Source: a virus. Taken from it: a stretch of 32,409 nt of DNA. The notes beneath the pieces are model-generated. The model had not been told where the DNA came from. It ran no database searches and worked only from the letters and a program-made list of their open reading frames with translations. Position 1 is the first letter of the stretch. The number at the start of each line of letters is the position of its first letter. Below, in pieces: positions 8,649 through 12,948 of this stretch. Position numbers and translations under genes: made by a program. The stretch spans positions 1 to 32,409 of IMG/VR virus record IMGVR_UViG_3300021964_000278; one strand, written 5' to 3'.

Positions 8649-8901
8649 CTGAAAATTTCTCCTCATAGATATCGAGTCCGTATGCCATGCGTCGTTTCTC
8701 TCCGCTGGCAATGGTTTGCTCGGTGTGTTCAATGGTTGTGCAAAGATAACGGTAGTAGTGAGTGTTTGTTTCTCCATCACGTTGCATCTTCGCAACCTTG
8801 TCATATATGCGACTGACCTTCCGATCTAAACGATTTAGATGATTAACGCTTGGGCAATAAACTGGAACGAGATCCGAAGCTTTTTTTGTCAGAGTTCTCA
8901 T
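8632..8901 (-). CDS. Small basic helical protein, first gene after the main leftward promoter
   Basis: 89 residues from ATG 8901 (GGGAG six bases upstream); the much longer open frame runs through the terminator and the next gene and is not coding. Basic N-terminus (MRTLTKKASD) then helix-rich SVNHLNRLDRKVSRIYDKVA. The start codon lies about 20 bases after the predicted transcription start. Early codons include an A7 run, which can be slippery. No family recognised. Confidence 0.65.
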   Translation of the reverse strand: MRTLTKKASDLVPVYCPSVNHLNRLDRKVSRIYDKVAKMQRDGETNTHYYRYLCTTIEHTEQTIASGEKRRMAYGLDIYEEKFSDDNSR

Positions 8902-8912
8902 TTTTTTCTCCC

Positions 8913-8930
8913 TACTGCATACTTGCAGTA
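8913..8930. promoter_or_regulatory. Operator-like palindrome, copy 1
   Basis: TACTGCATACTTGCAGTA, with half-sites TACTGCA/TTGCAGTA around a short centre. It overlaps the -10 box and the expected transcription start of the promoter at 8927-8954, exactly where a repressor would block initiation. A near-identical copy lies at 3818-3835 in a second leftward promoter. Confidence 0.6.
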
Positions 8931-8954
8931 TAGCAGTGATTGTTGTAGTTGCAA
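8927..8954 (-). promoter_or_regulatory. Main leftward sigma70-type promoter
   Basis: On the minus strand TTGCAA (8954-8949) is separated by 16 bases from TATACT (8932-8927), and the base context TGC directly before TATACT gives an extended -10. It sits between the terminator at 9005-9035 and the start at 8901, so it would drive the whole operon down to about 1.8 kb. The overlapping palindrome implies repression. Confidence 0.7.
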
Positions 8955-9004
8955 CGCAGTTATATGGCCGGGCAACCGGCGCTGGCCACGCAGTACCGAG
9001 CATG

Positions 9005-9035
9005 AAAAAAGCCCCGCAGCCGAAGCTGCGAGGCT
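9005..9035 (-). terminator. Rho-independent terminator
   Basis: Read leftward: AGCCTCGCAGC, loop TTCG, GCTGCGGGGCT, then TTTTTT. The stem is 11 bp with one mismatch-type pair, followed by six T. It lies 12 bases after the stop at 9047 and separates that gene from the main leftward operon, which has its own promoter immediately beyond. Confidence 0.9.
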
Positions 9036-9046
9036 GTGTCAGCGTG

Positions 9047-9472
9047 TTAGGCTGACTTGGTGAAGAAGGAACCTGCATCCGCAGTGGCTGCTGCGTTCTG
9101 CTTGGCAGCGTTGACTTGATCAGGGAACATCTGCTCCTGTGCTTGCTTGAAGTATGCGAGCATCTCTTCAGCGACGTTCTGCTGGTCATTGTGCCAGTTC
9201 CAGTCACGCTCCCATTGCAGAAGCTGACCGACATCGAAGGCTGGTGCGCCTTCGATGTCTCCGGCACGGTTGGCGTTCATCTCTACGCCTTTGTCGAAGA
9301 TGTCAGACTTGATCTGTTCCTTGCGGTCAATCGACCATACAAGATGATCAATGAACTTTTGTACATGATACTGTACTGACTTGTTTGTTGTGTTGTTGTG
9401 TTCAACAGCAGCAAGAGAAAAGATGGTGGTCAGGTTCTTGGCAAGTCCATTTACGTTTGATTGCTTTGACAT
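9047..9472 (-). CDS. Unknown early protein, own transcription unit
   Basis: 141 residues, GGAG before ATG 9472. Composition is soluble and helical, with LAAVEHNNTTNKSVQYHVQK, QIKSDIFDKGVEMNANRAGD and the Trp-rich QLLQWERDWNWHNDQQN, ending in an Ala-rich tail. No family recognised. It is the first leftward gene after the divergence region, is closed by its own strong terminator and has a potentially very structured leader (hairpins at 9492-9510 and 9514-9656). This isolation suggests very early, high or specially regulated expression. Confidence 0.7.
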   Translation of the reverse strand: MSKQSNVNGLAKNLTTIFSLAAVEHNNTTNKSVQYHVQKFIDHLVWSIDRKEQIKSDIFDKGVEMNANRAGDIEGAPAFDVGQLLQWERDWNWHNDQQNVAEEMLAYFKQAQEQMFPDQVNAAKQNAAATADAGSFFTKSA

Positions 9473-9491
9473 TAGTCACTCCTTAGCAAAG

Positions 9492-9510
9492 AGGCGAGAC
9501 GATCCCGCCT
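9492..9510 (-). promoter_or_regulatory. Small leader hairpin next to the 9472 start
   Basis: AGGCGAGA and TCCCGCCT pair with one mismatch around a 3-base loop. On the minus strand it is followed by CTTTGC and then the GGAG of the 9472 gene, so it could act as an attenuator or as part of a translational control element with the long hairpin immediately upstream. Confidence 0.4.
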
Positions 9511-9513
9511 TAC

Positions 9514-9656
9514 GAGATACCCCAATCACGGCTGGCAGACGGAATCCAGTCAGGCTCGGTCGGCATTGGCATGATCGACCCAGCTTTAGCTGGCTAGGCG
9601 ATCACCAATGGGCGAGACTGGATTCAGGCTGACAGTTGATGATTGGTTGGTATCTC
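9514..9656. ncRNA. 143-base near-continuous hairpin (structured RNA or cruciform element)
   Basis: The two halves pair along almost their full length: GAGATACC 9514-9521 with GGTATCTC 9649-9656; CCAATCA 9522-9528 with TGATTGG 9640-9646; CTG-x-CAG 9532-9538 with the partner at 9629-9635; GAATCCAGTC 9542-9551 with GACTGGATTC 9616-9625; CATTGG 9564-9569 with CCAATG 9605-9610; TGATCG 9572-9577 with CGATCA 9599-9604; CCAGC 9580-9584 with GCTGG 9589-9593 around a TTTA loop. About 48 base pairs are interrupted only by small bulges and internal loops. Many short blocks with separate mismatches point to selection for structure rather than a recent inverted duplication. No tRNA or known RNA family recognised. 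Strand undecided; leftward it would be the leader of the 9472 gene. Typing it as RNA is an inference. Confidence 0.55.
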
Positions 9657-9838
9657 TTGGCGGATTGGCTCGTTTCTTTGGTTAGGAGTGCTATGTCAAT
9701 GCTAGCAAACGTGGACTTGCCAAGGTTCTGCCAACAGCTTTTCTCGCAGTCTGATGTTGTGGTAGGGCATGATAATACATGAGGTATATCCCCCCTCTCC
9801 TGCGCGTGTTGCTTTGCGCGGTGCAACGTCCGTCAGTG

Positions 9839-9858
9839 CAGCAGTCAACAGACTGCTG
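9839..9858. repeat. Perfect inverted repeat in the divergence region
   Basis: CAGCAGT and ACTGCTG, seven bases each, separated by CAACAG. No T-run follows on either strand, so it is not an obvious terminator. It could be a protein-binding palindrome or part of an origin. Confidence 0.45.
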
Positions 9859-10009
9859 TGATGTCGCAACGGCCACTCGCGCAAGCATAGGTCACGCGCA
9901 CAGAACAGATGCTGAAGCATGTCATAAGATACTGCTATGCTGATAATGAATGACATCAAATGTTGGTATGCTGTGCGTTTTATGCGTTGACAAAGGGTTG
10001 ACAGATCGG

Positions 10010-10045
10010 TGACTGTGGGGGGGAACACAGGGGGGGCAACAGTCA
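10010..10045 (+). other. Stem-loop holding two G7 tracts before the small terminase gene
   Basis: TGACTGT (10010-10016) and ACAGTCA (10039-10045) pair perfectly and enclose GGGGGGGAACACAGGGGGGG (10017-10036). An alternative inner stem CTGTG/CACAG is also possible. It ends nine bases before the small terminase ATG. Candidate packaging-initiation or regulatory element; the G tracts may also form quadruplex-type structures. Confidence 0.5.
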
Positions 10046-10054
10046 GGTTTGAGT

Positions 10055-10426
10055 ATGACAGTAGCTAAGACACTAACCAGCAAACAAATGGCTCTCGTGG
10101 ATACGCTCGTAGCCGAAGGATGTACGATCAAGGAAGCAGCACATAAGGCTGGATATGCTGATGGTGAATCCGGAAGAGTGACAGCCAGCAAGGCTTTGAA
10201 GCTGCCACACGTCCAGCAGTATATGATGCAGGCTGTCACTGAGTCGTTAGGTGTTAATGCTACCTTTGCTGCCAGCAAGCTTCTAAAGCTAGCGTCAGGT
10301 GCTAAGAGTGAGTATGTTCAGCTAGAAGCGAGTAAGGACATACTTGATCGGGCTGGCTTCAAGCCGGTAGATAAGTCCATGCACTTGCATGCTGGGGAAA
10401 TCAAGGTGAGCATAGACCTGACGTAA
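10055..10426 (+). CDS. Terminase small subunit
   Basis: 123 residues from ATG 10055; a TTG two codons upstream is less likely. N-terminal HTH: LTSKQMALVDTLVAEGCTIK, EAAHKAGYADGESGRVTASK, then LPHVQQYMMQAV, the usual small-terminase DNA-binding layout. The C-terminal part (AASKLLKLASGAKSEYVQLE, ILDRAGFKPVDKS) matches the oligomerisation and tail region of this family. It recognises the packaging site and loads the large terminase. The gene opens the rightward late operon and follows a G-rich stem-loop that may be its own target. The Shine-Dalgarno is weak. Confidence 0.82.
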   Translation: MTVAKTLTSKQMALVDTLVAEGCTIKEAAHKAGYADGESGRVTASKALKLPHVQQYMMQAVTESLGVNATFAASKLLKLASGAKSEYVQLEASKDILDRAGFKPVDKSMHLHAGEIKVSIDLT

Positions 10427-12013: not shown

Positions 12014-12276
12014 TGCCTAAGTATCAGTTTAGAGATGGCACAGCTTATAATGGCCCAACGGTTACTATGCCAGACGGCAGGGTTATGTCTGGTGCAACAC
12101 TCACCTCTGACTCACAGCGTCTAGTGGAGATTGAAGATGGCGGTCAACGAAGCGGGGAATTACACGAAGCCAGCGTTGAGAAAGCGCCTGTTCCAGCGAG
12201 TAAAAGCCGAGGGAAAGGGCGGAAAGCCGGGTCAGTGGTCAGCAAGAAAAGCGCAAAGGCTAGCACTTCTGTATAA
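12013..12276 (+). CDS. Small protein with FRDGT-x-Y-x-GP and MSGATLT motifs
   Basis: 87 residues. The first 42, QFRDGTAYNGPTVTMPDGR then VMSGATLTSDSQRLVEIE, look like a small beta-rich conserved protein. From about residue 42 on the same DNA also encodes the start of the next small protein in another frame, and the C-terminal Lys/Ser-rich half is probably an unconstrained, overprinted tail. The start is coupled by TAATG. Confidence 0.6.
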   Translation: MPKYQFRDGTAYNGPTVTMPDGRVMSGATLTSDSQRLVEIEDGGQRSGELHEASVEKAPVPASKSRGKGRKAGSVVSKKSAKASTSV

Positions 12277-12304
12277 GAAGGCTGGCGGAGGATATACAAA
12301 CTAA
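12137..12304 (+). CDS. Conserved small protein nested in the previous gene
   Basis: 55 residues, ATG 12137 with GGAG seven bases upstream and TAA at 12302-12304 overlapping the next ATG. AGNYTKPALRKRLFQRVKA, then GGKPGQWSARKAQRLALLYK and GGGY is a pattern I recognise from many marine and T4-like phages (x-GNYTKP-x-x-RK-x-LF ... GQWSARKAQ-x-LA-x-x-YK-x-x-GGGY). Overlaps the preceding frame by 140 bases. Shorter than usual gene-calling cut-offs and easily missed. Function unknown. Confidence 0.8.
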   Translation: MAVNEAGNYTKPALRKRLFQRVKAEGKGGKPGQWSARKAQRLALLYKKAGGGYTN

Positions 12305-12648
12305 TGTCCGATCTTAGAAAGCTAACAGTCTCTCAGTTTAATGCTGCAGTGAATCGTGGTGTAAAGCAGCGTGAAGAAAAGATTCCATCTAATCTGCGTG
12401 CTATTGCTAGAAAGATTGTAGCTGGCATGTCGGCTCCTACTGGCTCTAAGTCGCAGTCTTCTCTGATTGCTCAAGTTGATGAAGACAAGCAGCGCAGGAT
12501 TAAAGATCTGGCTGACTACCAGCGCCGCATGGACAAGATGCGCAGATCTCTTCTTAAGATTGGCAAGAGTGCATCACTGGATGCATATAGGGACGCTGGT
12601 TTGCCTTTGGTCAACAAAGACGCAATCAGTGAGTATGTTCCGCGATAA
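12304..12648 (+). CDS. Small basic helical protein
   Basis: 114 residues. LTVSQFNAAVNRGVKQREEK and KIPSNLRAIARKIVAGMSA open it, then QVDEDKQRRIKDLADYQRRM suggests a coiled coil at about residues 56-85. Coupled start (TAATG). No recognised domain. The 48 bases after it are strikingly AT-rich (two CGATAA repeats, TATACGAATATACC) and could hold a promoter. Confidence 0.62.
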   Translation: MSDLRKLTVSQFNAAVNRGVKQREEKIPSNLRAIARKIVAGMSAPTGSKSQSSLIAQVDEDKQRRIKDLADYQRRMDKMRRSLLKIGKSASLDAYRDAGLPLVNKDAISEYVPR

Positions 12649-12696
12649 CGATAATATACGAATATACCAACCCCTAAGGGTAGGAATAATGGAATA

Positions 12697-12948
12697 ATGG
12701 CACTAGCAGCTTCACAGAGATCCTTGAGAGCATGGACGCGACAGAAATGGCGCACCAAGTCAGGGAAGCCCAGCACTCAGGGCAGGGAAGCTACTGGTGA
12801 ACGTTATCTCCCTGCGTCTGCCATCTCTGCCCTGAGTGACGCAGAGTATCAGCGCACAACAAAGAAGAAACGTGCTGCCCTACGTCGAGGCAAGCAGTTC
12901 TCAAAGCAACCAGAGAGCATTGCCAAAAAGACAGCGAGGCACAGATGA
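12697..12948 (+). CDS. DUF5872-like small basic protein
   Basis: 83 residues. SLRAWTRQKWRTKSGKPSTQ, then ATGERYLPASAISALSDAEY and GKQFSKQPESIAKKTA follow the DUF5872 pattern closely (W-x-x-x-x-W-x-TKSGKPSTQG, ATGERYLP, QP-x-x-IAKKTA), shared between phages and large eukaryotic viruses. Strongly basic; no function known. Overlaps the next gene by four bases (ATGA). Confidence 0.8.
   Translation: MALAASQRSLRAWTRQKWRTKSGKPSTQGREATGERYLPASAISALSDAEYQRTTKKKRAALRRGKQFSKQPESIAKKTARHR

Follow-up and report, generated by a model that had tools for sequence, protein, structure and literature searches.

A giant RNA hairpin of up to ~1.2 kb, in which a protein gene of the opposite strand forms one arm and a mirror arm co-evolves with it through G-U pairs, appears to be widespread among marine podoviruses of the Hodr group, and we give this reading a probability of roughly 0.65. 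The window (the whole 32,409-nt stretch of IMG/VR virus record IMGVR_UViG_3300021964_000278) is, judging from its sequence, DNA of a marine podovirus that has Pelagibacter phage Hodr among its relatives. Its terminase large subunit is 64% identical to that of Pelagibacter phage EXVC031P Hodr, and a nucleotide search of the window against known phages gave no match. The hairpin sits in a divergence region, with the leftward gene 9047-9472 on one side and the terminase small subunit gene terS (10049) on the other. To its left lies a leftward operon with genes for an Erf annealing protein, a RecE-like exonuclease, and a RusA/Hjc-like resolvase, and to its right lie genes for the terminase, head-tail connector, major head protein, and tail tube. 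The features in this region are the following.

9390-9778 (approximate), + strand (favored by the wobble asymmetry): full giant hairpin, 154 pairs in the RNA fold
9514-9656, + strand: apical hairpin with the type A core; fold z = −8.0, pairing kept in six relatives
9403-9583, + strand: left arm, antisense to the ribosome-binding site (RBS), first ~25 codons, and leader of the leftward gene; from self-alignment
9594-9759, + strand: right arm, a non-coding, sense-like mirror of the left arm; from self-alignment
9693-9782, + strand: degenerate mirror of the gene start, with an ATG and a 29-aa frame; from sequence inspection
9047-9472, − strand: leftward gene of 141 aa, partly inside the left arm, predicted helical hairpin
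9010-9035, − strand: intrinsic terminator of the leftward gene
10049-10426, + strand: terS, the right neighbor and the anchor for finding relatives (PHROG 2538, E = 1e-13)

The first-pass annotation had described a long imperfect hairpin at 9514-9656, made of pairing blocks around a TTTA loop. Our fold agreed with this description in both blocks and loop, and the hairpin proved real on both strands. The 143 nt folded at −75.2 kcal/mol on the + strand (z = −8.0) and at −69.7 kcal/mol on the − strand (z = −8.35). Shuffled sequences folded much worse (−44.9 kcal/mol on the + strand, standard deviation 3.8), and none of 200 was as good on either strand. The extent of 143 bases was, however, too short. 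Pairing extends unbroken outward to an outermost pair at ~9390/9778 and mirrors the gene start, and 9514-9656 is merely the apical third of this larger hairpin. The region 9390-9780 (391 nt) folded as a single hairpin at −207.5 kcal/mol (z = −13.8) on the + strand and at −172.3 kcal/mol (z = −13.1) on the − strand. Outside 9514-9656 lie 99 of the 154 pairs, and the flanking arms folded without the apical part gave z = −13.2. The limits of the hairpin are approximate, because the outermost closing pairs shift with larger fold windows.

Alignment of the region with its own reverse complement revealed one palindrome, centered at 9585, with a score of 141 compared with at most 34 in 200 shuffles. 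The rest of the window had no comparable palindrome, with self-alignment scores not exceeding 44. The local alignment of the palindrome, scored with Watson-Crick pairs only, spans ~9403-9759; an RNA-weighted scoring was dropped as too permissive. The right arm lies in non-coding DNA and the left arm enters gene 9047-9472, so the earlier statement that neither a gene nor a terminator explains the hairpin stood for the terminator but only in part for the gene. An intrinsic terminator was ruled out, since 9514-9656 harbors no terminator-like site (GC stem and T run). The 29-aa frame at 9693-9782 resembles the N-terminus of the leftward protein; it is probably not coding, because an extra base shifts the frame in two relatives (L013 and L014, by eye). 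The Rfam search that had been suggested for the hairpin matched no family: with Rfam 15, nothing reached the gathering score in the window (including GOLLD, ROOL, OLE, pRNA, and 6S) or in eight relatives, and nothing was found in 8900-10100 at E values up to 1. Between the giant hairpin and terS, at 9822-9872, lies another and smaller hairpin (AGCAGTC..AACA..GACTGCT, extended by flanking pairs), which relatives also have.

Using the leftward protein and terS as queries, we found the palindrome in many relatives. Fourteen IMG/VR contigs encode a conserved version of the leftward protein, and the hairpin occupied the same position as in the window in all of them except L012, whose contig ends too early. 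The terS search yielded 80 loci. Among the 69 with at least 600 nt of upstream sequence, 48 had a palindrome scoring at least 60, our cut-off, in the interval between the leftward gene and terS, and across 87 loci the best palindrome elsewhere scored no higher than 43. The cultured Pelagibacter phage Hodr carries a palindrome at the corresponding place (12089-12480; center, 12285), and the gene to which it would be antisense lies at 12374-12817. No comparable palindrome was detected in MEP301 or in the more distant Mwe-JY08, VA-RY-3, Y3, and Pmp11, which are relatives by large terminase.

The apical core occurs in versions that we name A, A′, and B, which differ on both sides of the stem with pairing kept. 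Compared with its A′ relatives, the window has three core base pairs altered on both sides, and in six relatives 98.1% of cells were paired compared with 27–44% when the partner was slid; the set is small, and the shuffle control for the count of double-changed pairs alone was not exceeded. By eye, the type B core is found in L003-L007, L009, L010, and L014 of the window clade and also in L038 and L100 of a long-armed clade, and a third core is common to L068 and L096. The cores thus seem to have been swapped among phages with unrelated arms, which suggests a recombining functional module.

In the long-armed clade, the palindrome measures 1150–1260 nt with arms of ~550 nt, and the left arm spans the entire leftward gene together with its terminator, which falls inside the outer end of the arm. 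Alignment of the leftward proteins of this clade led to 64 loci, and most of those with enough upstream sequence had the full mirror. The mirror arm of this clade (e.g., L022, L038, L087) also contains two copies of TTTTAG, ~12–17 nt apart at a fixed place. The gene arm lacks them in most loci, as does the window. These copies bulge opposite conserved VINxHKG codons and are a candidate protein-binding site.

The mirror arm follows the gene as it diverges. In 16 dereplicated long-arm loci, at sites differing between the genes of two phages, the mirror was Watson-Crick paired in both phages at 61%, and this tracking dropped to 3–5% when the partner was slid by one to three bases. At third codon positions the figure was 60%, so the mirror follows even synonymous changes. 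Among close relatives, one-sided changes dominated (Watson-Crick to G-U, 244; Watson-Crick to A-C, 81; Watson-Crick to a transversion mismatch, 244), and double paired changes numbered 175 and rose with divergence. The closest pairs differed almost entirely on one side (L108/L113, 15 single changes and no doubles; L114/L117, 30 single changes and no paired doubles), which indicates that there are no conversion tracts. The arms therefore evolve by stepwise compensation through G-U pairs, and neither by gene conversion nor by recent duplication. These results suggest that the feature is very probably selected for base pairing. The compensatory changes that the first-pass annotation had asked for in relatives are thus present. 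Its proposal of a degraded inverted-repeat element was rejected: arms drifting without compensation do not account for 61% in register against 3–5% out of register, and pairing persists through sequence turnover.

Two further explanations are a neutral inverted duplication whose arms are kept alike by gene conversion and an artefact of metagenome assembly. Inverted duplications do arise, and the right arm is indeed a non-coding copy of the gene. However, the arms differ by ~25%, conversion tracts are lacking in the closest pairs, and the mismatches are asymmetric between strands; an assembly artefact would have to recur in independent contigs from many samples and in a cultured isolate. We regard both explanations as very improbable.

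The mismatches between the arms bear on which strand is selected. In the 16 dereplicated long-arm loci, the + strand carried 621 G·T mismatches versus 79 A·C, and the other classes were similarly uneven (G·A 385 vs. C·T 154; T·T 190 vs. A·A 50; G·G 125 vs. C·C 26). G·T exceeded A·C in coding (518:51), non-coding (64:20), and terminator (39:8) parts, and in 29 of 33 dereplicated loci. Taken by itself, the window offers few wobbles to count (7 vs. 3). Base composition alone predicts a G·T:A·C ratio of ~1.5, and the keto fraction at four-fold sites of left-operon genes on the same strand was 0.56–0.59, which is too mild for a pure mutation bias. A·C was also rarer relative to G·U among standing mismatches (79:621) than among recent changes in close pairs (81:244). 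When letters were shuffled among the mismatched columns of each locus, the mean G·T:A·C ratio was 6.7, which the real ratio of 5.7 did not exceed; the asymmetry is therefore an enrichment of G and T in mismatches as a class. Such an enrichment fits selection on mismatch stability, and it also fits a strand-biased mutation process. The + strand was more stable than the − strand in every locus folded (−774 vs. −553 in L022). Taken together, the asymmetry suggests that the selected molecule is probably a + strand RNA that runs toward terS and is antisense to the leftward gene. That the interval between the leftward gene and terS produces a giant, rod-like structured RNA, ~390 nt here and ~1.2 kb in one clade, is a somewhat better than even proposition, and with the shuffle and compensation tests both positive, the earlier suggestion of a structured regulatory RNA survives.

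The same asymmetry bears on two other readings. The palindrome might act as the 5′ leader of the leftward mRNA, a − strand transcript hiding its own RBS until RNase III or a protein opens the fold. The RBS and start codon do lie within the stem, the − strand also folds strongly, and the long-clade palindrome ends at the terminator of the gene. Yet each G·U of the + strand would be a C·A mismatch in the − strand, the − strand fold is the less stable one in every locus folded, and in the long-armed clade a duplex would take in the entire coding sequence. The leader role, which the first-pass annotation had also raised, is thus doubtful, and we consider it improbable. A role at the DNA level, as a replication origin, packaging (pac) site, or recombination site folded as a cruciform or as single-stranded DNA and possibly handled by a phage resolvase, seems a little less unlikely. 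It would suit the divergence point adjoining terS, the resolvase, Erf, and exonuclease genes in the window, and a GC skew that rises rightward from the hairpin. Imperfect arms (75–80%) extrude poorly as cruciforms, which counts against such a role, and a cruciform exposes both strands, so that a preference for G·T over A·C on one strand is unexpected; the origin-type cruciform proposed earlier is accordingly not favored, as the two strands were not symmetric. Among DNA forms only folded single-stranded DNA of the + strand would fit, and it would predict much the same mismatch pattern as the + strand RNA.

How a + strand RNA would work can be outlined from the positions of its arms. The left arm is by position complementary to the opposite-strand mRNA, over the gene start in the window and over the whole gene in the long-armed clade. 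The working molecule would be transcribed toward terS, and it may, on a weaker footing, act on the leftward gene. Its 5′ arm would be a perfect antisense to the translation start (window) or to the whole mRNA (long-armed clade), and the stem would keep it paired with a G-U-rich, sense-like arm that matches it imperfectly. The genuine mRNA would pair better and could displace the sense-like arm, and the resulting duplex would block translation and expose the mRNA to RNase III, switching the leftward gene off. Antisense control of this kind is the leading mechanism suggested by the sequence, and a tentative one. Promoter scans at both ends of the palindrome revealed no conserved site that would drive transcription into it from the left, and no rightward terminator was found at its right end. 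Antisense RNA alone does not require the long-clade palindrome to end at the terminator of the leftward gene, and such control leaves the need for a full mirror arm unexplained.

The main rival to antisense control, possible but slightly less so, is that the rod itself is the product: a long + strand dsRNA that binds or saturates a host factor such as RNase III, another dsRNA-binding protein, or a defense sensor. The gene would then be embedded in the arm to save space, and the apical core would be the one part where sequence matters. The rod keeps its length and pairing despite sequence turnover, the apical cores look modular (by eye), and bulges and mismatches are scattered along the whole rod, all of which would suit this rival, and the decoy idea of the first-pass annotation thus stays in play. 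On the other hand, the left arm reaches the gene start in the loci examined, and a pure decoy needs no such thing.

The presumed target of antisense control, the leftward protein, has further relatives at 27–37% identity. Comparison of the leftward proteins with Pfam and PHROG gave nothing convincing, and searches of known phages and the phage collection gave no match, nor did bacterial and archaeal genomes contain a relative. An AlphaFold2 model of the protein (pLDDT 77) was all helical. Foldseek returned no significant match for this model (best E = 0.16); a lengthened ROP variant aligned well (E = 0.6), which says "helical hairpin" only.

Large structured non-coding RNAs of bacteria and their phages whose function was likewise unknown at discovery include GOLLD, ROOL, and OLE, which are ornate, multi-branched, sequence-conserved Rfam families (PMC12286853). 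The giant hairpin differs from them in being a single long rod without an Rfam match, whose arms are defined by a protein gene. With the cis-encoded antisense RNAs of plasmids and phages (RNA I/RNA II and CopA/CopT type) it shares an arm complementary to the translation start or mRNA of a neighbor; those RNAs are short with small stem-loops, unlike the giant hairpin, and we know of none that includes a mirror of its target at full length. Eukaryotic hpRNAs are long hairpins made from inverted gene duplicates, and they too form long dsRNA from an inverted partial or full gene copy, whereas the phage hairpin has no Dicer/Argonaute pathway and its arms are kept paired by compensation over deep divergence. 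Obelisk and viroid-like RNAs are rods of ~1 kb with an embedded reading frame; unlike them, the giant hairpin belongs to the genome of a dsDNA phage, with the reading frame carried by the other strand.

No description of a giant hairpin mirroring a gene was found within openly licensed papers, and we rate as new the arrangement of a protein gene that doubles as an arm of a giant structural RNA of the other strand, with a co-evolving mirror. We know of no phage precedent for a gene in which every codon is also under pairing selection with a distant mirror, here one lying hundreds of bases away. If the + strand RNA is real, it would be among the longest near-continuous dsRNAs put forward for a bacterial system, and the phages that carry it are abundant in the ocean; its escape from RNase III and its effect on the host would then call for explanation. 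Because Hodr is a cultured isolate, these questions are directly testable.

The region around the hairpin has other elements. A pair of G tracts (GGGGGGG AACACA GGGGGGG, 10017-10036) directly follows a TTGACA promoter-like box and precedes terS. It is conserved in most of the loci L018-L097 and might serve as a packaging site, as a regulator site, or as an element for slippage or quadruplex formation. The left operon has a sigma-70-like promoter at 8927-8954 (TTGCAA-16-TATACT), distinct from the isolated leftward gene and the terminator that follows it. In L106, L114, L119, and L129, a TGACGTAACGTCA-like palindrome is present at both divergent promoter regions, near terS and near the left-operon promoter, and looks like an operator for a phage regulator.
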